DNA from: an uncultured bacterium
GTDB lineage: Bacteria; Acidobacteriota; Thermoanaerobaculia; Thermoanaerobaculales; Thermoanaerobaculaceae
DNA length: 64,000 nt
Direction of reading: 5' to 3'
Assembly (NCBI GenBank): GCA_937924755.1
Contig: CALEVZ010000028.1
Coordinates: 124,001 to 188,000, forward strand
Below, piece by piece: positions 12,403 through 26,097 of the stretch. The translations under genes and the position numbers were made by a program. Below the pieces are notes generated by a model. The model was not told the origin of the DNA. It worked only from the letters and a program-made list of their open reading frames with translations, and made no database searches. Position 1 is the stretch's first letter. Each line of letters begins with the position of its first letter.

Positions 12403-12577
12403 TTTGAGCCCCGAGGCGATCACCCGCCGCCTGGAGCTGGTGGCCGAGCTGCGGCGTCTGTGCCTGGAGCTGGGAAAGGCGCGCCCCAGCGCAGGTCATG
12501 AGGGGCAGGTGGCGGCTGTCGGGGTGGGGGCGGCGGCTTTGGCGGCAGGGCCCGGTCGCAGTACAGTGAAGAGGTGA
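12392..12577 (+). CDS. Small helical partner of the nucleotidyltransferase
   Basis: 61 residues. The first 30 (MSIDLSPEAITRRLELVAEL and the following RRLCLELG) form an amphipathic helix pair that I recognise as a common downstream companion of such nucleotidyltransferases. The C-terminal half is Ala/Gly-rich and may be degenerate. It overlaps the preceding gene by 11 bases and its TGA stop overlaps the GTG start of the histidine kinase (GTGA), so translation is probably coupled through all three genes. Function unknown. Confidence 0.6.
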   Translation: MSIDLSPEAITRRLELVAELRRLCLELGKARPSAGHEGQVAAVGVGAAALAAGPGRSTVKR

Positions 12578-13632
12578 GCCCACCGCGCCCCCGGGCCCGG
12601 CGGCCCCTGCCGGTCGACCTGCTGGAAGACGTGGTGGAGTGCCTGCCCGCTGGCCTCATCGTGGTGGACGAGCACGGCCGTATCGTCTACTGCAACCCCC
12701 TGGGGGAGGCCATCCGGGACGTGGGCGACCACCTGGGGGAAGGCATTGAGAGCTGTCACCCTCCGCACACCCACGAAGCTCTGGAGCAGGTCTTCGCCAC
12801 CCTGCGGCAGCAGGACCCCTCCCATCCCCACCCCATCGTGGTGGAGCGCCGCAACCGCTGGGAGATCACCTACTCCCGCATCAGCGATCGGGAGGGGAGG
12901 TTTCGCGGCGTGGCCTGGATGGCGCACGACATCTCCCGCCAGAAGGAGCTGCAGCGCAGGGTATTACACCAGGAGCGGCTGTCCGGGCTGGGGCGCATGG
13001 CGGCGCGGCTGGCCCACGACGTGAAGAACCCTTTGAACGTCATCGCCGGGGCGGTGCACAACCTGCGCGCCGAGTGCGCCAATGCCGAGCAGGAGGAAAT
13101 GCTGGCCCTCATCGCCGACCAGACGCAGCGCCTGTCCGACCTGGTGGACCGCCTGCGGGAGCTGACCCGGCCGCTGACACCGCAACTACAGCGGGTGGAC
13201 CTCACGACTCTGATCCGAAGGACGATGGAAGCGGCGCGCCGTTGCTCACCGGCGCGGGTTCGCCTGCAGCTACAGGCGGAGGTTGGAGGAGACGTCTTGC
13301 TGGATCCCCAGCTGGTGGAGCGCCTGCTGGCCAACGCCCTGGACAACGCGGTGCGGGCTGCCGGTCCTCGCGGCACGGTGCGGCTGTCGGCCCAGCGAGA
13401 TACCCGGCCCGACGGGGAGTGGCTAGTGCTCCGGGTGGACGACGACGGACCGGGGTTCCCAGCGGCGGTTCTGGAACACCTTTTCGAGCCCTTCGTCACC
13501 ACTCGCCCGGACGGCACTGGACTAGGGCTTACCATCATGCGGGAGATCTGCCTGCTCCACGGAGGGGACCTGGCGGTCGAAAACCTCTCCCCGGGAGGGG
13601 CGCGGGTGACCGCGCGGTTGCTGTCACGATGA
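12574..13632 (+). CDS. PAS-domain sensor histidine kinase, cognate to the sigma-54 regulator
   Basis: 352 residues, with no obvious transmembrane segment, so it is probably a cytoplasmic sensor. Domain order: PAS domain (about 15-120) with an unusual CHPP motif (Cys61-Pro64); HisKA with the phospho-acceptor His148 in AHDVKNPLN; HATPase_c with N-box [13 protein letters not shown]1 DDDGPGFP and G2 [12 protein letters not shown]. The CHPP-H pattern resembles PAS domains of DUF438-type proteins, which may bind a redox cofactor; this is a resemblance only. It starts at GTG 12574 overlapping the previous stop and shares an ATGA overlap with the response regulator. It probably phosphorylates that regulator in response to redox state or nitrogen oxides. 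Confidence 0.9.
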
Positions 13633-15011
13633 GGGACGAACGCCCCCGGGTGTTGCTGGTGGAGGATGAGCTGGCGGCGGTGAAGGTGACGGCACGCTCC
13701 CTGGAGAGGAGTGGCTTTCTGGTGCGGGCGGTGGGGGACGGCGCCGCGGCGCTGGCCTGTCTGGAGGAGTTCCGACCCGCAGCGGTGGTGGCCGACCACT
13801 TGCTGCCCGGGGGACTGTCGGGTCTGGAGCTGCTGCGCTACGTCCAACGGCGCGCCCCGGACCTGCCGGTGATCATGGTGACGGGCCACGGAGACGAGCG
13901 CCTGGCGGTGGAGGCAATGCGGCTGGGGGCTTTTACCTACCTTCCCAAGCCTCTAAATTTCGAAGAGTTGGCGCTGGTGCTGCGGCGCGCGGTGGAGCTT
14001 CACGATCTTCGTCGGCAGACGCGCCAGGCCCTCCTGCAGAGGGCCAGCGCCGAGCTCATCGGTGAATCCCCGGCCATGGAGCGGGTGCGGGAGCTCATCG
14101 CCGAGGTGGCCCCCACCGAGGTGACGGTGCTCATCCAGGGTGAGACCGGCTGCGGCAAGGAGCTGGTGGCACGGGCCATCCACGCCGTCTCTCGGCGGGC
14201 GCGGGGGCGCTTCGTGGCGGTCAACTGCGCGGCGATCCCCGAGACCCTGCTGGAGGCGGAGCTGTTCGGCCACCGGCGGGGGGCCTTTACCGGGGCCGAG
14301 CATACTCGGGACGGCAAGTTCGTGGCGGCTCACGGCGGCACCCTGTTTCTGGACGAGATCGGCGACCTGCCCCTGGGTTTGCAGCCCAAGTTGCTGCGGG
14401 CGCTGGAGGAGCGAGCGGTCACTCCGCTGGGTGAAGACGCCCCGCGGTCGGTGGATGTGCGGGTCATTGCCGCGACTCACCACGACCTGAAAGCGGAGAT
14501 GGAGGCAGGAAAGTTTCGCGCCGATCTGTACTATCGCTTGCACGTGGTGCCCATTGCCATCCCCCCTTTGCGCCAGCGCCGGGAGGATATTCCCGCCCTG
14601 GTGCACCACCTCCTTCCCAGGCTGGCGGCCCGCCACGGGCGAACCATTCGCGACCTCGCCCCGGAGGTGATGGACTGGCTGGCCGCACAACCCTGGCCAG
14701 GGAACGTGCGAGAGCTGGAGAATACCCTGGAGCGGATGGTGGTCCTGGCCCGGGACGGCGTGGTCCACGTGCCGGCCGATGGGGTGGCCACCGGTGCCCT
14801 GGCACCCTTTTTTACCGAAAAGCGCCGCCTGCTGGAGGCCTTCGAACGGGACTACCTGGTCCGGGCACTGGCGCACGCCGGCGGCCACCTGGGGGTGGTC
14901 TCCCGCCTCACCGGCATCTCCCCCCGCCAGCTCTACAACCTCCTTCGCAAGCACGGTCTCGCCGGCGAGCCGGCGCCCTGTCGGTTCGGCGCTGATGTGC
15001 CGAGCGCGTAG
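13629..15011 (+). CDS. NtrC-type sigma-54-dependent response regulator
   Basis: 460 residues. Receiver domain with phospho-acceptor Asp56 (ADHLLPGG). AAA+ domain with Walker A GETGCGKE, the sigma-54 contact loop GAFTGA and Walker [15 protein letters not shown]-terminal Fis-type helix-turn-helix ends in [14 protein letters not shown]. It activates RNA polymerase carrying sigma-54. ATG 13629 overlaps the kinase stop by four bases. The first downstream gene, 184 bases away, has a near-perfect -24/-12 promoter (15157-15171), so the most likely target is the Rieske/cytochrome/nap operon immediately to the right. Confidence 0.95.
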
Positions 15012-15195: not shown

Positions 15196-15648
15196 ATGGA
15201 GTTGAGGACACCCACTCGCCGGCGAGACTTCCTGGCCAACTTGGCCGTGGCGCTGACAGTGATCCCCGGGGTGGCGATCGCTGCGCGGTACGTCCTGGCA
15301 TATCTGGTTCCCCGCCGGGCGGCTGCCGTCCGCGAAGTGATGCTGGCGCGGTTGGACGCTCTGCCGGTGGGAACCAGCCGAGAGTTTCGCGGGGTGCTGG
15401 GGAACGATGTCCTCGTGGTGCGCCTGGGGGACGGGGATGTCCGTGCCTTTTCGGTGGTGTGTACCCACTTGGGTTGCCGCGTGGTGTGGGACCAGCAGGA
15501 GGGCAATTTTCTCTGCCCCTGTCACATGGGTCGCTTTGATCCGACCGGGAAAGTGATCGCTGGACCCCCGCCGGCTCCGCTTCCTTCCTTTTCGGTGCGC
15601 CTTGATCGGGACGCGGTGTATGTCACCGTGCCAGTTGAGGAGGTGTGA
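15196..15648 (+). CDS. Rieske [2Fe-2S] iron-sulfur protein
   Basis: 150 residues. A twin-arginine-like N-terminus (RRRDFLANLAVAL) and hydrophobic anchor are followed by the Rieske fold. Cluster ligands are Cys89 and His91 in CTHLGC, and Cys107 and His110 in CPCH; Cys94 and Cys109 would form the stabilising disulfide. It takes electrons from quinol at the Qo site of the adjacent cytochrome b. It is the first gene of the sigma-54-controlled operon, four bases before the cytochrome b ATG. No cytochrome c1 or f gene follows; a multiheme cytochrome takes that place. Confidence 0.95.
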   Translation: MELRTPTRRRDFLANLAVALTVIPGVAIAARYVLAYLVPRRAAAVREVMLARLDALPVGTSREFRGVLGNDVLVVRLGDGDVRAFSVVCTHLGCRVVWDQQEGNFLCPCHMGRFDPTGKVIAGPPPAPLPSFSVRLDRDAVYVTVPVEEV

Positions 15649-15652
15649 GGCC

Positions 15653-16765
15653 ATGGCGGTGGCTCAGCCCGCGATCCCCGGTTGGGTGCGCTTCCTGCGC
15701 GAGCGCATTCCCATCAATATCGAGGTCTTCGAGGAGCTCTCCAAGGAGCCCATCCCCCACCACATGAAGTCCTGGTGGTACTGCCTGGGGGGCACCCCCA
15801 TGCTGCTGTTCGCCATCCAGGTGGTCACCGGCATCCTGCTGACCTTCTACTACCGGCCGTCGCCGGAGGAAGCCCACGCTTCGGTGCGCATGATCAGCGA
15901 GGAGGTTCCCTTCGGCTGGTGGATCCGCTCCATGCACCACTGGGCCGCCAATCTCATGGTGGTGGCGGTGGGGTTGCACATGATCCGGGTCTTTTTCACC
16001 GGCGCCTACCGCAAGCCGCGGGAACTCAACTGGGTGGTGGGGGTGGGGTTGCTGCTGACCACCCTGGGGTTCGCCTTTACCGGTTACGCCCTGGTCTACG
16101 ACCAGCTCTCCTACTGGGCCGCCACCGTGGGGACCAACATCGCCGGCCAGACGCCCATCGTCGGTCCCTGGATCGCCAACCTGCTGCGCGGCGGCGCCGA
16201 GGTCAACCCCACCACGCTGACGCGGTTTTTCGTCTTCCACGTCGGGGCGATGCCCACCCTGTTCGTGATCCTGCTGGGGCTGCATATCTTCCTGCTGCGC
16301 ATCCACGGCGTGATGGAGCTGGATGCGCCGGAAGAGGTGCAGGCCACCCCCCTGACCGTGGAGGAGGACCGCGAGGGCAAGCGGCGTTTCGATCCCAACC
16401 GCTTTTTCGCCTTCTTTCCGGACCATGTCACCACCGAGTTGATCGTCGGTTTGTTCTTGATCACCGTGGTCACCATGCTGGCGATGGTGTTCCCGGCCCA
16501 CCTGGGGCCCCCCGCCAACCCCGACGAGACTCCCCTGCACATCAAACCTGAGTGGTACTTCTTCCCCCTCTTCCGCTGGCTCAAGCTGGCGCCCCTGTGG
16601 CTGGGGCTGGCAGGGACTTTGGTTGCCGGGCTTGCCTTGGTTTTCTGGCCGTTTCTGGAAGGGGCCTGGCGGACGCGGCGGCCCCGCTCGGAGGCGGCGA
16701 TGGCGGTGGGGGGGGTGTTCCTGTCGCTGGTGCTGGGGTTTTTGATCTGGGAAGCACTGTCGTGA
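15653..16765 (+). CDS. Cytochrome b, b6-type fused to subunit IV
   Basis: 370 residues. The N-terminal part is a four-helix b6 domain with heme-ligand histidines His95/His109 and His196/His211. The second pair is spaced 15 residues as in b6, not 14 as in bc1. Cys43 in YCLGG corresponds to the residue that binds the extra heme c_i in b6f complexes. The C-terminal part is subunit IV-like with the Qo-site motif PEWY (299-302). With the Rieske protein it should form a quinol-oxidising complex at the inner membrane. The frame is open upstream, but ATG 15653 gives the proper start, four bases after the Rieske stop. Confidence 0.94.
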   Translation: MAVAQPAIPGWVRFLRERIPINIEVFEELSKEPIPHHMKSWWYCLGGTPMLLFAIQVVTGILLTFYYRPSPEEAHASVRMISEEVPFGWWIRSMHHWAANLMVVAVGLHMIRVFFTGAYRKPRELNWVVGVGLLLTTLGFAFTGYALVYDQLSYWAATVGTNIAGQTPIVGPWIANLLRGGAEVNPTTLTRFFVFHVGAMPTLFVILLGLHIFLLRIHGVMELDAPEEVQATPLTVEEDREGKRRFDPNRFFAFFPDHVTTELIVGLFLITVVTMLAMVFPAHLGPPANPDETPLHIKPEWYFFPLFRWLKLAPLWLGLAGTLVAGLALVFWPFLEGAWRTRRPRSEAAMAVGGVFLSLVLGFLIWEALS

Positions 16766-16801: not shown

Positions 16802-18157
16802 ATGTCTTTGCAATTTAAAAAGTTCATCGTGGCGCTCTTTTCCCTGGCCTTCATCGCCGCGGTCATCATCGTGGGCCTGATTCAGCGGGATCGGGCGAGG
16901 CCCGAGAAGGCTGCCCGCGCCTACGCCGACGAGGCCACCAAGGCGTGCATCAATTGCCATGACCAGAAGCACGCGGCGGTGGTGTGGAACCGCCAGTGGG
17001 AGCAATCCCGCCACGCCGAGAAGGGGATCGGCTGCATGGCCTGCCATCAGGCGGCCGAAGGGGACCCCGATCTGTGGCGGCACGAGGGGTATCTGGTGGC
17101 CACCGTGCCCTCCCCCAAAGACTGCGCTTCCTGCCACGAAAAGGAGTACAAGGAGTTCACCGCCTCCCACCACGCCAAGGCGGCGCAGTTCATCGGCTCG
17201 CTGGACAACATCCTGGGCGAGGTGGTTGAGGGCACGCAGGCGGCCAACCTGGGGTGTAAGCAGTGCCACGGCTCGGTGGTCAAGATCGACGCAAAGGGGT
17301 TACCCCTCCCCGGGGGCTGGCCCAACACCGGCATCGGCCGGGTGAACCCCGACGGCTCCCTGGGCACCTGCACCGCCTGCCACACCCGCCACATGTTCTC
17401 CAAGGCCCAGGCGCGCGAGCCGCGCACCTGCGGGCGCTGCCACATGGGGCCCGACCATCCGCAGGTCGAAATCTACGAGGAGTCCAAGCACGGCATCATG
17501 TTTGCCGCTCACCGAGCGGCCATGCGCCTGGACGCCGACCAATGGATCGTCGGCAAGACCTACACCGCCGCCCCCACCTGCGCCACCTGCCACATGGCAG
17601 CCACCCCCACCCAGGCCTCCACTCACGATGTGGGGGCGCGCATCTCCTGGACGCTGCGCCCGCTCTTCTCCAAGCGCCTCGAAAACTGGGAGGAGAAGCG
17701 CGCCGCCATGACCAAGGTGTGCCTGGAGTGCCACGGCCAGAACTGGGTGACCAACTACATGCAGATGTTCGATGACGCCGTGGAGCACTACAACACCAAG
17801 TTCGCCGGCCCGGCCAACGACGTGATGGAAAGGCTCAAGGCCGCCGGCAAGATCACCCCCACCCCCTTTGACGATGCCATCGAGTGGACCTTCTACGAGC
17901 TATGGCATCACGAGGGAAGACGGGCACGCCACGGCGCCTCCATGATGGGCCCCGACTTCACCCAGTGGCACGGTTTCTATGAGGTGGCCAAGCACTTCTA
18001 CACCAAGTTCCTGCCCGAGGCGGAAAAGCTCTTGCCCGGGGTGAGCGGGGTGGCACTGGCGCAGGAGGGGCACCAGTGGAAGAAGGGGATGTCCCCTGAG
18101 GACCTCAAGCGGATGATCGCCTTCTACGAAGATCGGTACGGGCAGAGGGTACAGTAG
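16802..18157 (+). CDS. Membrane-anchored octaheme cytochrome c, hydroxylamine oxidoreductase (HAO)-like
   Basis: 451 residues with an N-terminal membrane anchor (about 7-27) and eight CxxCH heme sites beginning at Cys49, 78, 108, 152, 190, 210, 260 and 307. The C-terminal helical part with LWHHEGRRARHGASMMGP is what I recall from HAO-family octaheme proteins. The P460-forming tyrosine of true HAO is expected in this C-terminal region; here the local sequence is GPDFTQWHG with Phe386. If that is the position, the enzyme would lack the cross-link and act as a nitrite/hydroxylamine reductase rather than an oxidase. It could also serve as electron acceptor of the Rieske/cytochrome b pair. A GGAGG ribosome-binding site precedes ATG 16802. 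Confidence 0.85.
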   Translation: MSLQFKKFIVALFSLAFIAAVIIVGLIQRDRARPEKAARAYADEATKACINCHDQKHAAVVWNRQWEQSRHAEKGIGCMACHQAAEGDPDLWRHEGYLVATVPSPKDCASCHEKEYKEFTASHHAKAAQFIGSLDNILGEVVEGTQAANLGCKQCHGSVVKIDAKGLPLPGGWPNTGIGRVNPDGSLGTCTACHTRHMFSKAQAREPRTCGRCHMGPDHPQVEIYEESKHGIMFAAHRAAMRLDADQWIVGKTYTAAPTCATCHMAATPTQASTHDVGARISWTLRPLFSKRLENWEEKRAAMTKVCLECHGQNWVTNYMQMFDDAVEHYNTKFAGPANDVMERLKAAGKITPTPFDDAIEWTFYELWHHEGRRARHGASMMGPDFTQWHGFYEVAKHFYTKFLPEAEKLLPGVSGVALAQEGHQWKKGMSPEDLKRMIAFYEDRYGQRVQ

Positions 18158-18246: not shown

Positions 18247-19758
18247 ATGAAGACCCTCGCAGCACTTTCCACAGCGGCACTCCTGCTGACCGCCCTGCCG
18301 GCGGCAGCCCAGGAGGTTGCCAAGCCGGCGGAACCGAAACTGGAGCTGCAGCTGTCCGGCTTTTATGAGTTCAACGGCTACACCCAGAACAATTTCTTCC
18401 TGGGACGCAACCCCGCGGGGCCGGTGAGCGACAAGGACGACTATATGATCCAGGTCTTCCGCTTCACCCCGGTGCTCTCCTACGGGCCCAATCTCAAGGG
18501 GGTGCTGAGCATCGACGTGGCCCAGGGGATCTGGGGGGTGGACAACGAGTACCGGGACAACTTCCGCCCCGGCTTCTCCAACCTCTTCAACAACAAGGAC
18601 ACCAACTTCTTGATTCACGTGGACACCGCCTACGTGGAGTTCTCCGCCCCGCAACTGCGGGGCACTGCGGTGCGGCTGGGACGCATGCGCAACGATCTGG
18701 GCAACCGCCTGGTGCTGGATCAGGACGGCGACGGCATCCAGGTACAGAGGAGATTCGGCGACTGGACGGCGGTGTTCGACTGGACCAAGATGTTCGAGGG
18801 CACCGACGGGCTGACCGATCGCAACTTCAATGGCAACCCCGATGGTCGCGATGCCAATCTGTTGTATCTGGACCTCAAAGGGAAGTCAGGCGCTTTTGCC
18901 CTCAATCCGTTCCTGATTTACTACAAGGATTTAGGCATCGCCGACGGCCGCAGCTATATCCCCAACGAGTTGCAGTACTTCAACGCCCGCTTCCGGCCCA
19001 ATATTACCCAGGCCACGGTGCTGGGCTTCGCCTGGGACGGCAAGCTGGGCAAGGTGGCCTTCAAGGGCGAAGTGGACCTGCTCACCGGCAAGGACCGCAT
19101 CGCCAACGTCAACTCCGGTCCGAACCAGCTACTGGACGTCAACAACGGCGACCTCAGGGGGCACAACCTCTACCTAGATTTCAAGCTCCCGGCCGGGAAG
19201 TCCACCTTGGGGGTGGTGCTCGGCCTGGGTTCCGGGGATGATGATCCCATGTCCGGCAAGGGCAACATCAATAAGATCCGCACCAACGGATTCTTCTACA
19301 TCACCGAGATCTGGGAAGACTCCATCATGCCCGACGAGCAAGGGATCACCCCCCAGGGGCTGGGCTCCCCCGCTTCCCGGGGCTACCGCGAGTTCGAGAA
19401 CACCACCCTGCTCCAGCTCAACGCCGCTTTCCCCTTAAGCCCGGAGTGGAAGCTGTTCGTCTCGGGCACCTTGGTGCGGGCCACCGAGGCGCTGCGCCCG
19501 TGGGCCGACCGCAACGGTAACGGCGCCATCGACCCTGGTGAATTCGGTCCCGAGAGCTCCCGGGATCTGGGCCGGGAGATCGACCTGAAGCTGGACTGGA
19601 CCATCATGAAGAACCTCATCTGGACGCTGCGGGGCGGCATCTTCTTCCCCGGTGATGCGGCCGGCTACCTGATCAACGGCACCAGCGCCTACTCCAAGAA
19701 CGCCTGGGAAGTCCGCACCACCCTGCGCTTCAATTTCGGCGGCCTCAAGCTAATGTAG
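18247..19758 (+). CDS. Outer-membrane beta-barrel (porin-like) protein
   Basis: 503 residues with a clear signal peptide (MKTLAALSTAALLLTALPAAAQ) and an alternating amphipathic pattern over the whole length, ending in a barrel-type terminal strand (RTTLRFNFGGLKLM). A short Ca-binding-like segment (DRNGNGAIDPGEF) occurs near residue 420. It resembles single-component porins found beside respiratory cytochromes. It may pass nitrate/nitrite or other solutes, or it may house a cytochrome; nothing in the sequence decides this. The ribosome-binding site is AAGGAGGTGGATCACG before the ATG. It lies between the octaheme and tetraheme cytochrome genes. Confidence 0.8.
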   Translation: MKTLAALSTAALLLTALPAAAQEVAKPAEPKLELQLSGFYEFNGYTQNNFFLGRNPAGPVSDKDDYMIQVFRFTPVLSYGPNLKGVLSIDVAQGIWGVDNEYRDNFRPGFSNLFNNKDTNFLIHVDTAYVEFSAPQLRGTAVRLGRMRNDLGNRLVLDQDGDGIQVQRRFGDWTAVFDWTKMFEGTDGLTDRNFNGNPDGRDANLLYLDLKGKSGAFALNPFLIYYKDLGIADGRSYIPNELQYFNARFRPNITQATVLGFAWDGKLGKVAFKGEVDLLTGKDRIANVNSGPNQLLDVNNGDLRGHNLYLDFKLPAGKSTLGVVLGLGSGDDDPMSGKGNINKIRTNGFFYITEIWEDSIMPDEQGITPQGLGSPASRGYREFENTTLLQLNAAFPLSPEWKLFVSGTLVRATEALRPWADRNGNGAIDPGEFGPESSRDLGREIDLKLDWTIMKNLIWTLRGGIFFPGDAAGYLINGTSAYSKNAWEVRTTLRFNFGGLKLM

Positions 19759-19809: not shown

Positions 19810-20247
19810 ATGACGCGAAACTTTTTCATCGCTAGCCTGACGGTGGTCCTGGGAATGGCCGCCTTGGCGGCGGCAGCGCCCCAGCGCCCGGCCGCCAAGG
19901 GGAGAGGGAAGACCGCCGCCCCGGCGGTGGTCAAGCCGGCCCACCCCGAGGTGGACCCGGCCGAGGCCTGCGACGCCTGTCACGCCGAGGTCACCCCCCA
20001 GGTGCACCAGGAGTGGTTTGCCGGCCGGCACGGCATGAACAACGTCAAATGTTTCGTCTGCCACGGCTCGGTGGGGGCGGACTTCGTGCGGCGGGCGCCG
20101 GTGGAGCGGTGTATCGGCTGCCATGGTGAGCAGGTGGCCTCCATGGCCCACCCTGTCATGGCGGGAAAGGACTGCTTCTCCTGCCACCCGCCCCACTTGC
20201 TCTCCCCCCACCGCCTGGCGCGTGGCGTCACGGGAGGTGCGCAATGA
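19810..20247 (+). CDS. napM: Periplasmic tetraheme cytochrome c, NapM-like
   Basis: 145 residues with a signal peptide and four CxxCH sites (Cys54, 81, 101, 122). Its position directly before napA and the order M-A-D-G-H copy the nap operon described for Desulfovibrio desulfuricans, where NapM is a small tetraheme cytochrome. It probably delivers electrons to NapA, since no napB is present. The ribosome-binding site is an ideal AGGAGG six bases before the ATG. Its TGA overlaps the napA ATG (ATGA at 20244-20247). The gene symbol rests on context and heme count. Confidence 0.8.
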   Translation: MTRNFFIASLTVVLGMAALAAAAPQRPAAKGRGKTAAPAVVKPAHPEVDPAEACDACHAEVTPQVHQEWFAGRHGMNNVKCFVCHGSVGADFVRRAPVERCIGCHGEQVASMAHPVMAGKDCFSCHPPHLLSPHRLARGVTGGAQ

Positions 20248-22511
20248 CCACTTTGTCTCGTCGAAGCTTCTTGGAGGCCTCCGCCGCCGCCTCGGCTCTG
20301 GCTGCTCTGGGGGGAGTTCATGGCGTGAAGCAAGCCATGGCCGCCACCGCCGCCGGGGGTGAGAGCTGGGTGAAGAGCGTGTGCCGTTACTGCGGCACCG
20401 GCTGCGGGCTGTTCATCGGCGTCAAGGACGGCAAGGTGTTCGCCGTCAAGGGCGACAAGGACAACCACAACGCCGGCTTTTTGTGTCTGAAGGGTTTCCT
20501 GCTGCCCCAGATCCTCACCGCTCCCGACCGCTGCCTCCATCCCTTGGTGCGCAAGGAGGGCAAGCTGGTGCGCGCCTCCTGGGAGGAGGCGATGTCACTG
20601 GTGGCCAGCAAGTTCAAGGAGAGTATCGAGAAGTACGGCCCCGACAGCGTCGCCTTTTACGGTTCGGGGCAAGGACTCACCGAGGAGACCTACTGCGCCA
20701 ACAAACTCTTCAAGGCCGGTATCCGCACCAACAACGTGGAGGGCAACCCCCGTCTGTGCATGGCCTCGGCGGTCGCCGGCTACGTCACCACCTACGGTAA
20801 GGACGAGCCCATGGGCCTGTACGAGGACATCGACCATGCCGATGTCATCCTCCTCGTCGGCAGCAACACCGCCGAGGCCCACCCCATCATCTTCCAGCGG
20901 GTGGTGCGCCGCAAGGAGACGGGCCGCGGGGTAAAAGTGATCGTCATGGACCCCCGCTTCACCCCCACCTCCCGCATCGCCGACCTGCACATCTCCTTCA
21001 CCCCCGGCAACGACCTGGCCATCCTCAACGCCATGGCCCACGTCCTGGTCAAGGAGGGGATGGTGGACGAGGGCTTCATCGCCAAGCACGTGGCCTTCGG
21101 GGAGGGGACGGAGGTCAACAAGAGCTTCGACGATTACAAGGCCTTCCTGGCCGAGTACACACCGGAAAAGGCCGCCGCCATCGCCGGCTGTAGGCCCGAG
21201 GACATCGTCACCGCGGCGCGCTGGTTCGGGGAGCGGGGTAAGGCAGCGACGTCCATGTGGACCATGGGCCTCAATCAGCGCACCAAGGGGGTGTGGGCCA
21301 ACAACCTGGTGCACAACCTGCACCTCCTCACCGGCAAGATCGGCACCCCGGGCAACACTCCCTTCTCTCTCACGGGTCAGCCCAACGCCTGCGGCGGAGT
21401 GAGGGACGGCGGGGCCCTCTCCCACCTGCTGCCCTACGGTCGACTGGTGGCCAACGACGCCCATCGGGCGGAAATGGAGAAGCTCTGGGGGGTGCCCGAA
21501 GGGACGCTGAAGCCCAAGCCGGGCCTGTCCACGGTGGACATGTTCCGCGCCCTGGAGGCGGGCGAGATCAAGTGCCTGTACATCATGTGCACCAACCCGG
21601 GGCAGTCGCTGCCCAACGTGAACCGCTACCGCAAGGCCATGGAGCGGGCCGACGCCTTCGTGGTGGTGGCGGAGGCCTTCCACCCCACCCGCACCTCGGA
21701 GCTAGCGGACGTGGTGCTGCCGGCGGCGCTGTGGGCGGAAAAGGAAGGGGTGTACGGCTGCGCCGAGCGGCGCTACCAGCTGCTGGAGCAGGCCATCCCG
21801 CCGGCCGGGGAAGCGCGGCCGGACTTTGCCATCCTCTGCGACCTGGCAGCCCGGCTGGGACACGGCAAGCTTCTGCCCTTTAAGACTCCCGCCGATGTCT
21901 GGGCGGAAATCCTCACCATCTGCAAGGGGACGGTGTATGACTTCTCCGGCATGACCCGGGAACGGCTCAAGCAGGCCCATGGGTTGCTGTGGCCCCTGCC
22001 CACCCCCGGCCACCCCGGGACCAAACGGCGCTACGTCAAGGGGGACGATCCCCTGGTGCCCGCCGACCATCCGGAGCGCATCCTCTTCTACGGACGTCCG
22101 GACAAGAAAGCCGTGGTGTGGCTGCGCCCGCAGCGGCCGCCGGAAGAGGTGCCGGACGCCGAATTCCCCTTCTTCCTCACCACCGGCCGCGAGATCGAGC
22201 ACTGGCATACCGCCACCATGACCCGCAACTGCAAGGAGCTGGCCAACACCAACCTGGAGTCCATGGCCCAGCTGCACCCCAACGACGCCAGGAAACTCGG
22301 GGTGCGGGCGGGGCAATCGGTGCGCCTCACCTCTCGGCGAGGTTCCCAGGTCTTCCGCGTCAAGGTGACGGACAACGCCAAGGAAGGGGTTATCTTCATC
22401 CACATGCACGACCCCGACCGGATGTGTAACGTGCTGACCATCGATGCGGTGGACCCCGTCTCCCGGCAGCCAGAGTTCAAGGTGTGCGGGGTACGGGTGG
22501 AGAAGGCGTAA
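20244..22511 (+). CDS. napA: Periplasmic nitrate reductase catalytic subunit NapA (monomeric type)
   Basis: 755 residues. A twin-arginine signal (SRRSFLEASAAASALAALGG) exports the folded enzyme. The [4Fe-4S] ligands are Cys47, Cys50, Cys54 and Cys81. The molybdenum ligand is predicted as Cys172 in NPRLCMASAVAGYVTTYG, followed by DEPMG, the pattern of NapA. The length equals the monomeric Desulfovibrio enzyme and is shorter than the proteobacterial NapAB type of about 830 residues. It binds bis-MGD and reduces nitrate to nitrite in the periplasm. A related molybdenum oxidoreductase such as a formate dehydrogenase is less likely because napD, napG and napH follow. Confidence 0.9.
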   Translation: MTTLSRRSFLEASAAASALAALGGVHGVKQAMAATAAGGESWVKSVCRYCGTGCGLFIGVKDGKVFAVKGDKDNHNAGFLCLKGFLLPQILTAPDRCLHPLVRKEGKLVRASWEEAMSLVASKFKESIEKYGPDSVAFYGSGQGLTEETYCANKLFKAGIRTNNVEGNPRLCMASAVAGYVTTYGKDEPMGLYEDIDHADVILLVGSNTAEAHPIIFQRVVRRKETGRGVKVIVMDPRFTPTSRIADLHISFTPGNDLAILNAMAHVLVKEGMVDEGFIAKHVAFGEGTEVNKSFDDYKAFLAEYTPEKAAAIAGCRPEDIVTAARWFGERGKAATSMWTMGLNQRTKGVWANNLVHNLHLLTGKIGTPGNTPFSLTGQPNACGGVRDGGALSHLLPYGRLVANDAHRAEMEKLWGVPEGTLKPKPGLSTVDMFRALEAGEIKCLYIMCTNPGQSLPNVNRYRKAMERADAFVVVAEAFHPTRTSELADVVLPAALWAEKEGVYGCAERRYQLLEQAIPPAGEARPDFAILCDLAARLGHGKLLPFKTPADVWAEILTICKGTVYDFSGMTRERLKQAHGLLWPLPTPGHPGTKRRYVKGDDPLVPADHPERILFYGRPDKKAVVWLRPQRPPEEVPDAEFPFFLTTGREIEHWHTATMTRNCKELANTNLESMAQLHPNDARKLGVRAGQSVRLTSRRGSQVFRVKVTDNAKEGVIFIHMHDPDRMCNVLTIDAVDPVSRQPEFKVCGVRVEKA

Positions 22512-22520
22512 GCGCGGTGC

Positions 22521-22549
22521 TGGCCCGCCCTCCCCGGGAGGGCGGGCCA
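22521..22549 (+). terminator. Perfect GC-rich hairpin between napA and napD
   Basis: A 29-base perfect inverted repeat with 14-bp arms around a single central base (arms begin TGGCCCGCCCTCCC) lies 9 bases after the napA stop and 20 bases before the napD ATG. No T-tract follows, so it is not a standard intrinsic terminator. It probably protects the upstream message from exonucleases or reduces readthrough, lowering the level of the chaperone and NapGH relative to NapA. Confidence 0.5.
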
Positions 22550-22569
22550 GCTGGAGTTTCTGGGGGGAG

Positions 22570-22809
22570 ATGCTCATCGCAGGGGTAGTGATCGAGACCT
22601 TGCCGGGCCGGGCGCCGGAGGTGGCCCTCCGCCTCGCGTCTCGCGGCGGGGTGCAGGTGAAGGGGGGGGATGGGGACCGCCGCCTGGCGGTGGTCGTGAG
22701 CGCCGCCAGCGGGGCCGAGCTGGAGCGCTGGGCCGAGGAGCTGGTGCGCGACGACGAGGCTGTCCTGGGGGTCTTCCCCACCTACGTGGGTGAGGATGAA
22801 AGGGCATAG
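22570..22809 (+). CDS. napD: NapD, nitrate reductase maturation chaperone
   Basis: 79 residues with the NapD pattern: MLIAGVVIETLPGRAPEVA at the start, an RRLAVVV strand and VLGVFPTYVGED at the end (ferredoxin-like fold). NapD binds the Tat signal of NapA and holds it back until the cofactor is inserted, in the cytoplasm. ATG 22570 follows TGGGGGG; a longer frame upstream overlaps napA and the hairpin and is not family-like. It overlaps the start of napG by 14 bases. Confidence 0.88.
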   Translation: MLIAGVVIETLPGRAPEVALRLASRGGVQVKGGDGDRRLAVVVSAASGAELERWAEELVRDDEAVLGVFPTYVGEDERA

Positions 22810-23314
22810 TCGTTTCGCCTGGCTGCGGGCGCTACTCGCCCCGGCGCCGCTGCGCCCGCCGGGGGCGCGGCCGGAACGGGAGTTTGCCGCCCTGTGCATC
22901 CGCTGCGGTCGCTGCGTGGCGGTGTGCCCCTACCGGAGCCTGGTGCCGGCCGGGTGGGCGTACGGGCCCGAGGCGGGGACCCCCATGGTGGTAGCCCGCT
23001 CGGTGCCCTGCTACCTGTGCATGGAGTGCCCGCCGGTGTGCCCCTCCGGCGCCCTCGATCCCATCACCGACAAGCAGGCGGTGCGCATGGGCATCGCCGA
23101 GGTCAACCCCCAGACCTGCTACGCCTACCTCGGCATCCTCTGCCGCACCTGTGTGGACGACTGTCCCATCGGGGCGGCGGCGCTGGTGCAGGACGGACAG
23201 CTGCGTCCGCTGGTGCGGGAGGGGTGCGTGGGTTGCGGGGTATGCGAGAAGGTATGCCCCACCCTGGAGCCGGCGATCGTGGTGCGGCCGGCAACCGGCG
23301 GGGTGCGGCCGTGA
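22796..23314 (+). CDS. napG: NapG-like four-cluster ferredoxin
   Basis: 172 residues with four cysteine sets for [4Fe-4S] clusters: CIRCGRCVAVCP, CYLCMECPPVCP, CRTCVDDCP with an upstream Cys, and CVGCGVCEKVCP. LRPPGA and GTP-VARSVPC are NapG hallmarks. NapG works with membrane NapH as a quinol dehydrogenase feeding periplasmic Nap. The usual twin-arginine leader is missing: the protein starts MKGHSRFAWLRALLAPAPLR. Either this protein acts on the cytoplasmic face, or it is exported with a partner. A GTG at 22790 would add only two residues. It shares a GTGA overlap with napH. Confidence 0.85.
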   Translation: MKGHSRFAWLRALLAPAPLRPPGARPEREFAALCIRCGRCVAVCPYRSLVPAGWAYGPEAGTPMVVARSVPCYLCMECPPVCPSGALDPITDKQAVRMGIAEVNPQTCYAYLGILCRTCVDDCPIGAAALVQDGQLRPLVREGCVGCGVCEKVCPTLEPAIVVRPATGGVRP

Positions 23315-24147
23315 GTCACGGGCCCACCCGGCGTTGGACCCGCTGGCGGCGCCCCACTCAGGCCGCGGTGGCCCTCTTTTACCTGGCCCTCCCTTGGCTC
23401 AACGCGGGGGGTTTTCGGGAGGTGGCGGGCACCCTCGCCTCCCTCAAGGTGGGCCCCCTCGACCTCACCGAGCCGGCCGCCGCCCTGGCCGCCGCCCTGG
23501 CCGGCCTCACCGCGAGCTGGGAGCTGGTACTGGGTGTGCTGCCGGTGGCGGCCCTGGCGCTGCTAGCCGGACCGGTGTTCTGCTCCTGGGTGTGCCCCTG
23601 GGGGCTGATCTCGGAAGGGATGGACCGGCTGCGCCAGCAGCTGCGGCCGCGGCCCTGGACGGACTCGCCGTGGGTGCGGGTGCGGCGGCTGCGCTGGGCG
23701 GCCCTGACCGGGGTGCTGCTCGCGGGGGCGCTGCTGGGCGCACCCCTAGCGGCGCTGCTGTCGGCCCCCCGCCTGATCACCGCCCTGCCCCTCGAAGTCG
23801 TCTGGCTGCGTCTGCTCTCGCCGGTCACCGGGGGGTTGCTCGGAGCGCTGCTGCTGCTGGAGCTCGTGGGCCCGCGCCGGCTGTGGTGCCGCGCCCTCTG
23901 CCCGGTGGGGGCGCTGGCCAACTTCCTCCGCACCCGCCGCACCCTGCGCGTGGGGTGGGATGCGACCCGGTGCACCTGCGCCCGCCACCCCCACTGTTTC
24001 TTGCGCTGCCCCTGGGGGGTGGACCCCCGCCAGGCGGGGCGCTACGATGGCTGCAGCAATTGCCTGGTGTGCGTAAAGGGGTGCCCCTCCGGCGCCCTGC
24101 ACCTGACGACATCCCCCCGGAAAGGATCGCCGTCGAAGGTCGAGTAG
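23311..24147 (+). CDS. napH: NapH membrane quinol dehydrogenase
   Basis: 278 residues with four hydrophobic transmembrane helices, the paired cysteine motifs FCSWVCPWG and WCRALCPVG characteristic of NapH/NosR-type proteins, and two C-terminal ferredoxin-like cysteine sets (CARHPHCFLRCPWG and CSNCLVCVKGCP). NapH takes electrons from menaquinol and passes them to NapG. The start is GTG 23311 overlapping the napG stop; the frame is open far upstream but that part is antisense-like GC-rich noise. This is the last clear nap gene. The TonB receptor starts 15 bases later. Confidence 0.88.
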   Translation: MSHGPTRRWTRWRRPTQAAVALFYLALPWLNAGGFREVAGTLASLKVGPLDLTEPAAALAAALAGLTASWELVLGVLPVAALALLAGPVFCSWVCPWGLISEGMDRLRQQLRPRPWTDSPWVRVRRLRWAALTGVLLAGALLGAPLAALLSAPRLITALPLEVVWLRLLSPVTGGLLGALLLLELVGPRRLWCRALCPVGALANFLRTRRTLRVGWDATRCTCARHPHCFLRCPWGVDPRQAGRYDGCSNCLVCVKGCPSGALHLTTSPRKGSPSKVE

Positions 24148-24162
24148 GGAGGCACTACGATC

Positions 24163-26097
24163 ATGAACGGTACCGAACTGGCGTGGATTCTGTGGATGCT
24201 GGGGGCACTGATGCCCGCCGCGGACCCGGCTGACCGGCCGACGACCCCAGCCCGGGCGGGCTTTCGCGACACCATCGAAGTGGTCGGCTCCCTGGACCTG
24301 GCGGAGTACCCCACCGCCCGGGCAGTTGCCGCCGAAGAGTTCACCGCCGCCGGGGCGTCCACCCTGGCGGAGGCGTTACCCCTGGTACCGGGCCTCGCCC
24401 TGGCCCCGGTGGGGGACCGGGGGGAGACGGGGCTTTACCTGCGGGGGCTGGAGCTGCGCCGGGTACCGGTGTACCTGGACGGCATCCCGGTGTACGTCCC
24501 CTACGACGGCACCCTGGACCTGGGACGCTTCCTGCTGGCCGGCTCGCACGCCGTGGTGGTCAACCGGGGCCCGAGCTCCCTGACCTACGGCCCCAACGCG
24601 TTGGGGGGCACGGTGAACCTGCTGGCCCGCCGCCCGCAGTCTCCTCTCGAAGGACAGGTCACGGGGGGGGTGGGGGACGGCGGCTTGGTGCGGGGAGCCA
24701 TCAACGTGGGCAGCCGCCGGGGACGCTGGGGCGTCCAGGCCACCGCCGCCCGCCAGGAGGTGGACGATGCCCTGCGGGCCGGCACCCCTTTGCAGCGCCG
24801 GAACTCCTTCAGTGAGGACACTCTGCTCACTCTCTCGCTGCTCTTTCTTGGCGAGGACGAAACCGACGCCGCCCTCACCTTCATTCGCCAGCAGGGGGAA
24901 AAGGGCCAGCCCCCTTACGCGGGGGACGACCCGGCCGCCCGCATCCGCTACTGGCGCTGGCCCCGCTGGGACAAGGACAGCGTCTATCTGCGGGCGCGCC
25001 GGCCGCTGGGGCGGGGGTGGGAGGTCCGCCTGCGCGCCTTCCACGACCGCTTCGCCAACACCCTCGACAGCTACGACGACGACACGTACACCACCCAGCG
25101 GCGGCGCGGCTCCTTCCGCAGCGAATACGACGACTTCACCACCGGCGCCGGGGTGGAGCTGCGCCGCATGCGCGGCGCGGGGCGGAGCACGGTGGCCTTC
25201 AACGGCAAGCGGGACGTGCACCGCGACCGTACCCTCCCCGCTCCCTGGACTCATTACGATGACGAGACCCTGTCGGTGGCGTGGGAAGAGGAGTTCTTCG
25301 CGGGCGCGGCGAGCCGGTTGGTGGCCGGCGTGTCCGCCGACCGTCAGCGCACCGTCCAGGCGGCGGGGCTGCAGCCGGGACGTGCCGAGGCCGTCAACGG
25401 GGTGGTGGCCCTGTTCCATCAGCTGGGGAAGGGCCTGCAGGTGCACGCCTCGGCTTCCCGGCGCACCCGCATGCCCACCTTGAAAGACCGCTACTCCTAC
25501 CGCCTGGGGGTGTTCCTGCCCAACCCGGAGCTGGGCCCCGAGACCGCCGACTCCTTCGATACGGGGGTGCGCCGGCGCTGGGAGGGGGGCCAGTGGGAGC
25601 TCACCGCCTTTGCCCTGCAGCTCGAGGACGCCATCGAGTCGGTTCCCCTGGGCGGGGGGTTGAGCCAGCTTCGAAACGTGGGGCGGGTGCGGCACACCGG
25701 CCTCGAAGCCGCCCTGGAGGCCAGCCTCACCCACCACCTGCGCCTGGGGGGTCACGTGGCCGCCGTGCACCGCTCCCGGCGGGCGGGGCCGCAGCTACCC
25801 CTCACCGGGGTGCCGCCCTACCGGGCTGTTGCCTTCTTGCGCCTCCAGGCCGCGCCGCGGCTGGCTCTGCGGCTGGCCGGCGAGGCGGAGGGGGAGCGCA
25901 CCAGCCGCACTCCCTCGGGGGCCACCCGGGAGCTGGGCGGCTTTGCCCTCTGGCATTTGGCCGCCTTCGTCACCTTGGCACCCGACTGGGAGGTGGAGCT
26001 GCGGGCCGACAACCTCTTCGACCGCCGCCACCAGCGGGAGGAGGGCTACCCCGGCCGCGGCCGCCAGCTTACCGCTGCCCTCACCTGGCGGCTGTGA
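24163..26097 (+). CDS. TonB-dependent outer-membrane receptor
   Basis: 644 residues. An N-terminal hydrophobic leader is followed by a plug domain (about 45-160: TLAEALPLVPGLAL, YLRGLELRRVPVYLDGIPV, YGPNALGGTVNLL) and a 22-strand-type barrel ending in RQLTAALTWRL. It imports a scarce ligand at the cost of TonB energy. Being 15 bases behind napH, it may be co-transcribed and could serve iron, heme or another metal needed by the cytochromes; the ligand cannot be read from the sequence. It is somewhat short for the family, with no carboxypeptidase-like N-terminal domain. Confidence 0.9.
   Translation: MNGTELAWILWMLGALMPAADPADRPTTPARAGFRDTIEVVGSLDLAEYPTARAVAAEEFTAAGASTLAEALPLVPGLALAPVGDRGETGLYLRGLELRRVPVYLDGIPVYVPYDGTLDLGRFLLAGSHAVVVNRGPSSLTYGPNALGGTVNLLARRPQSPLEGQVTGGVGDGGLVRGAINVGSRRGRWGVQATAARQEVDDALRAGTPLQRRNSFSEDTLLTLSLLFLGEDETDAALTFIRQQGEKGQPPYAGDDPAARIRYWRWPRWDKDSVYLRARRPLGRGWEVRLRAFHDRFANTLDSYDDDTYTTQRRRGSFRSEYDDFTTGAGVELRRMRGAGRSTVAFNGKRDVHRDRTLPAPWTHYDDETLSVAWEEEFFAGAASRLVAGVSADRQRTVQAAGLQPGRAEAVNGVVALFHQLGKGLQVHASASRRTRMPTLKDRYSYRLGVFLPNPELGPETADSFDTGVRRRWEGGQWELTAFALQLEDAIESVPLGGGLSQLRNVGRVRHTGLEAALEASLTHHLRLGGHVAAVHRSRRAGPQLPLTGVPPYRAVAFLRLQAAPRLALRLAGEAEGERTSRTPSGATRELGGFALWHLAAFVTLAPDWEVELRADNLFDRRHQREEGYPGRGRQLTAALTWRL

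Follow-up and report, generated by a model that had tools for sequence, protein, structure and literature searches.

A predicted membrane-anchored, reductive-type octaheme cytochrome c of the HAO family in a Rieske, cytochrome b and periplasmic nitrate reductase gene cluster

The octaheme cytochrome c encoded at 16802..18157 on the forward strand of the window (the whole 64,000-nucleotide stretch of Thermoanaerobaculaceae DNA that was analysed) raises the question of whether a protein with the features of HAO, the hydroxylamine dehydrogenase of EC 1.7.2.6, oxidises hydroxylamine or works in the direction of reduction. The open frame starts with ATG and codes for 451 amino acids; the gene is judged to be real and is present as a single copy in the assembly. 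The eight CxxCH motifs claimed in a preliminary description were located at residues 49, 78, 108, 152, 190, 210, 260 and 307, and the LWHHEGRRARHG and GPDFTQWHG stretches are present as it gave them, with a phenylalanine at residue 386. All eight motifs end in histidine and none is of the CxxCK type, which is found at the catalytic heme of the Thioalkalivibrio ONR (TvNiR) (PMC8840924). By its position in the HAO order heme 4, with the motif CKQCH at residues 152-156 (17255..17269, +), would be the active-site heme.

The proposed membership of the HAO family is borne out by sequence and by fold. In a single-sequence search of solved structures the protein matched IhOCC of Ignicoccus hospitalis (4qo5) with an E-value of 2.4e-45 and the HAO group with values from 1e-16 to 2e-20, the last being that of the Nitrosomonas europaea HAO (NeHAO); with a profile built from 30 relatives the values for 4qo5 and NeHAO were 1.6e-67 and 1.5e-32. 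An AlphaFold2 model of moderate quality (mean pLDDT 78, built without hemes) gave the same picture in Foldseek: 4qo5 ranked first and was followed by 6h5l, the reducing HAO-like complex of Kuenenia. The other HAO-family structures HOX, HDH and NeHAO came lower, and no match outside the family was significant. The protein thus combines eight CxxCH motifs with the HAO fold. Public genomes were scanned and yielded at least 575 relatives; the 80 that scored best are spread over many phyla. In the tree the query falls inside a large clade of relatives together with the long-branched L135, whose C-terminal residues are similar to those of IhOCC, and stands apart from both HAO proper and the octahemes of NPDY type; the Nitrosomonas and comammox HAO sequences form a separate clade (100/100), while the deeper branching order is unsure because of the long branches.

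The residue on which the assignment of direction turns is Tyr467 of NeHAO, the P460 cross-link tyrosine, which lies in GGWTYTEGW of the NeHAO chain and sits beside heme 4 of the adjoining subunit. Comammox HAO sequences from Nitrospira genomes were aligned to this chain over their full length, and intermediate octahemes from relatives of the source genome (NPDYTTWYGY, NADYAHWYGN and others) were included. In all three MAFFT modes Tyr467 aligns with Gln388 (17963..17965, +) and Trp465 with Phe386 (17957..17959, +). Phe386, the residue first proposed to replace the tyrosine, is therefore two residues away from the correct column, and the alignment through intermediates rules it out as the cross-link site. 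It had been stated that an alignment placing the tyrosine elsewhere and showing it conserved would count against the proposal; the column does lie elsewhere, but position 388 is glutamine in 67 and histidine in 14 of the 81 family sequences and tyrosine in none, so the claim that the tyrosine has been lost stands. Residue 386 is tyrosine in 51 of the same sequences, phenylalanine in 29 and tryptophan in one, and since the Tyr467 column is 388, a tyrosine at 386, frequent as it is among the relatives, is no sign of an oxidase. From these alignments the P460 tyrosine is missing from the window protein, and an HAO fold lacking it is what characterises the reductive HAO-like proteins (epsilonHao/HAOr in the broad sense). 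The octaheme family commonly lacks this residue (PMC12758564), so its absence is no peculiarity of this protein.

Other placements of the column were considered. Reductive members have been reported to carry a histidine at the key site where oxidative ones have tyrosine (PMC12758564), and residues 369/370 in WHHEG were considered for this reason; they were ruled out by the three-mode MAFFT alignment. MAFFT without the intermediates misplaced the HAO C-terminus owing to the longer HAO loop, and local hhalign ended short of the tyrosine site; both were superseded by the intermediate-based alignment. When the C-terminal part was aligned directly to NeHAO with HMMER, no match resulted. A second, different octaheme with PDYxxWYG, found in some relatives of the same family or order (L123-L128, L131-L133 and L138), has leucine or threonine at the tyrosine column.

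Asp218 and His219 (17453..17458, +) align with Asp267 and His268 of NeHAO, the pair that lines the distal pocket of HAO, and are invariant in the family (81/81). Residues 388 and 390 (17963-17965 and 17969-17971, +) vary together: Gln388 is accompanied by His390 in all 67 sequences that have it and His388 by Gln390 in all 14, without exception among the 81. The two side chains may act together in a single role. All of the His388 sequences (L017, L019, L023, L030, L045-L052, L054 and L062) come from Nitrospira, Nitrospiraceae or Nitrospirae records and may represent one lineage, in which case the swap may have been a single event. The histidine reported at the key site of reductive enzymes is in line with His388 of this set. 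More distant relatives (L082-L090) have Trp388 or His388 together with His390.

The octaheme gene lies in a Nap-linked nitrate-respiration cluster; the genes given in this paragraph are all on the forward strand. The cluster begins with a PAS sensor histidine kinase (12574..13632) and an NtrC-type sigma-54 response regulator (13629..15011, the start assigned by inspection inside ORF 13074). These are followed by a Rieske protein (15196..15648) and a cytochrome b that joins the b6 and subunit IV parts in a single chain (15653..16765, the start assigned by inspection inside ORF 15602), which is separated from the octaheme gene by 36 bases. Downstream are a tetraheme cytochrome c with four CxxCH motifs (19810..20247), NapM-like by position and heme count, and a NapA-type periplasmic nitrate reductase with a Tat signal (20244..22511), closest to the monomeric Desulfovibrio NapA (2jio/2nap; E=1.3e-274 against 2jio). 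A NapD-like chaperone (22444..22809; 27.8 bits in Pfam against a cut-off of 28), a NapG-like ferredoxin protein (22790..23314) and a NapH-like membrane Fe-S protein (22894..24147) complete the set; the matching part of the last starts from about residue 145, and its true start probably lies further downstream than that of the ORF. The cluster contains no gene for cytochrome c1 or f. The order is kept from Rieske through NapH, with NapG included, in an Acidobacteria MAG (L003), and in another genome from this family (L139) as Rieske, cytochrome b, octaheme, porin, NapM, NapA and NapD, where the fetched stretch stops.

Between the octaheme gene and that of the tetraheme cytochrome lies the gene for an outer-membrane porin-like protein (18247..19758, +), which is conserved in the cluster. 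NapH is directly followed by a TonB-dependent receptor (24163-26097). L038 has a second, divergent Rieske, cytochrome b and octaheme-like set (L038:17290-19959). It lies on the other strand, a few kilobases away from the first set, and its octaheme protein is 23% identical.

A serine and a tyrosine at the Rieske cluster raise its potential (PMC12954380). This pair is absent from the Rieske protein here (CTHLGC...CPCHMGRFD) and from the motif of all 23 relatives read, each of which has CPCHxxxF, nearly always as CPCHxGxF where the Rieske protein of the window has CPCHMGRF. Its absence would fit a low-potential chain of the menaquinol type.

The preliminary description had also noted that the protein has its own transmembrane anchor. 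Residues 8-27 (16823..16882, +) are hydrophobic, with a mean Kyte-Doolittle value of 3.06 over 19 residues, and residues 3-32 form one helix in the AlphaFold2 model. No small-x-small cleavage site is evident behind this segment, as judged by eye and from hydropathy, and the N-terminal helix is apparently uncleaved. The anchor was said to set the protein apart from HAO, described there as soluble. HAO is indeed purified as a soluble protein, but the NeHAO sequence in the PDB has a hydrophobic segment at its C-terminus, so that an anchor as such is no distinguishing mark. Among the 78 relatives examined 39 have cytochrome b directly upstream, and every one of these shows the anchor segment in the same place, whereas in most of those with no adjacent cytochrome b the segment is followed by a cleavage site of AxA type, as in an ordinary signal peptide; L006, L007 and L014 are exceptions or ambiguous, and the cleavage calls were made by eye and from hydropathy.

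The octaheme protein shares its N-terminal anchor and upstream Rieske and cytochrome b genes with a group that includes the Nitrospira 'ONR' and the Caldithrix protein. The Nitrospira moscoviensis ONR (L023, NZ_CP011801) is 56% identical over 444 residues and is likewise anchored with Rieske and cytochrome b directly upstream; in contrast to the window locus there is no adjacent NapA, and it has His388/Gln390 rather than Gln388/His390. It is co-expressed with these upstream genes on nitrite, and it has been proposed to link the assimilatory reduction of nitrite with the quinone pool (PMC6606698). Caldithrix abyssi, which makes ammonium from nitrate, encodes the same set of NapM, NapA, NapG/H, Rieske, cytochrome b and a tyrosine-less octaheme at Cabys_2564-2556, and this Nap-Rieske-cytochrome b-epsilonHao cluster has been read in the same way, the missing tyrosine being an argument for reduction (PMC5317091). 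The likeness is drawn from the published description rather than from sequence; the gene order differs, and the window adds the porin and the two-component system.

The closest solved structure by both sequence and fold, IhOCC, also belongs to an octaheme protein found at the membrane and has threonine at the tyrosine column by alignment, although it is archaeal and carries long insertions. To our knowledge it has no Rieske/b or Nap link. The title of reference 125 in PMC8840924 describes it as membrane-associated, as Kuste4574 of Kuenenia is described in PMC12485887. Kuste4574 and HAOr (6h5l) are, like the window protein, HAO-like octahemes of reductive type. Kuste4574 is a close homologue of HAOr and part of the Rieske/b complex R/b-3 (PMC12954380, PMC12485887), which, unlike the cluster here, includes one more multiheme cytochrome as well as a subunit that is an NAD(P) oxidoreductase. 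The Nitrosomonas (1fgj/4fas) and comammox HAO proteins share the fold, the eight CxxCH motifs and the Asp267/His268 pair, but have Tyr467 and P460, and their hydrophobic segment is C-terminal, not N-terminal.

Family and sequence mark the protein as an octaheme cytochrome c of the reductive HAO type with its own membrane anchor, and it probably reduces nitrite. The earlier suggestion of a reductase is upheld by the tyrosine missing from the alignment, the conservation of this state in the family and the Nap context, though with the residue corrected by two positions. We consider it likely that electrons from quinol pass through Rieske and cytochrome b to heme 4, where nitrite would be reduced, most likely to ammonium. 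The NapA-type enzyme of the cluster would supply the nitrite. Menaquinol, the quinone suggested by the Rieske motif, would be oxidised by cytochrome b and the low-potential Rieske protein, and the electrons would pass into the wire of eight hemes, with the anchored octaheme protein presumably docking on the Rieske/b complex in the role of cytochrome c1 or f. Nitrite would then bind at the open heme 4 beside Asp218 and His219, and reduction there would most likely end in ammonium, though we are less sure of the product. This reading is backed directly by the family, the missing tyrosine, the pocket residues and the gene order with its conservation, and by sequence and model as regards the anchor. 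No measured enzyme activity for the clade was found in the literature. Ammonium fits the gene context, yet HAOr makes NO.

The protein might instead resemble the Kuenenia HAOr and carry out the one-electron reduction of nitrite to NO, or stop at hydroxylamine. The complex containing HAOr is the second-best fold match, HAOr likewise has no tyrosine cross-link and its product is NO (PMC12485887), and its Rieske/b-linked homologue Kuste4574 is thought to form NO (PMC12954380). We regard this as unlikely given the setting of nitrate ammonification, with Nap here and assimilation to ammonium in Nitrospira (PMC6606698). No hybrid cluster protein (Hcp), which might take up hydroxylamine, is present in the genome assembly; this is 97% complete, so that the absence is fairly but not fully secure, and NrfA could serve in its place.

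This pentaheme NrfA (L143) is encoded elsewhere in the source genome (G000 contig C78:15098-16300) and has CLNCH as its heme 1 motif, of CxxCH rather than CxxCK type. The octaheme protein is therefore not the only candidate nitrite reductase, and the idea that it is the sole one in the genome was ruled out. Two adjacent genes resembling siroheme sulfite/nitrite reductases (L145 and L146, G000 contig C17:81107-82878) are also present and are possibly a DsrAB-type pair.

With NrfA carrying out the nitrite step, the octaheme protein might replace cytochrome c1 or f merely as a conduit from Rieske to NapM and NapA, as its gene lies between those for cytochrome b and NapM/NapA in a cluster that has no c1 or f gene. 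The invariant Asp-His pair in the pocket makes this rather improbable, as does the finding that many relatives with no nearby cytochrome b retain the same core; the Nitrospira homologues, moreover, mostly have no nearby NapA, and nitrite assimilation is the role for which they are expressed (PMC6606698). That the protein is a hydroxylamine oxidase of HAO type, with another residue such as Tyr365 or Tyr393 tuning heme 4, is very improbable despite the shared fold and pocket pair, given the lack of tyrosine at the Tyr467 column throughout the family, the nitrate-reduction context and a cluster in which no ammonia oxidation genes were seen.

Returning to nitrite reduction fed by quinol, we tentatively suggest that the octaheme protein is built into the Rieske/cytochrome b complex as a permanent subunit in place of cytochrome c1 or f, so that the whole would form a single proton-translocating assembly acting as a menaquinol:nitrite reductase. 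In that case the anchor would have co-evolved with the complex, the relatives lacking the complex having a cleaved signal peptide. It is perhaps somewhat short of an even chance that this is so, but the tight association of the anchor with cytochrome b offers a case, open to testing, for an energy-conserving quinol:nitrite reductase.

The protein adds one member to a known, widespread and mostly uncharacterised group, ordinary in itself but well placed. With the correct column, 388, databases could sort oxidative from reductive members and avoid the trap set by Tyr386. Such octaheme enzymes occur across many uncultured phyla, and the reduction of nitrate to ammonium, in which this one would take part, retains nitrogen in ecosystems.
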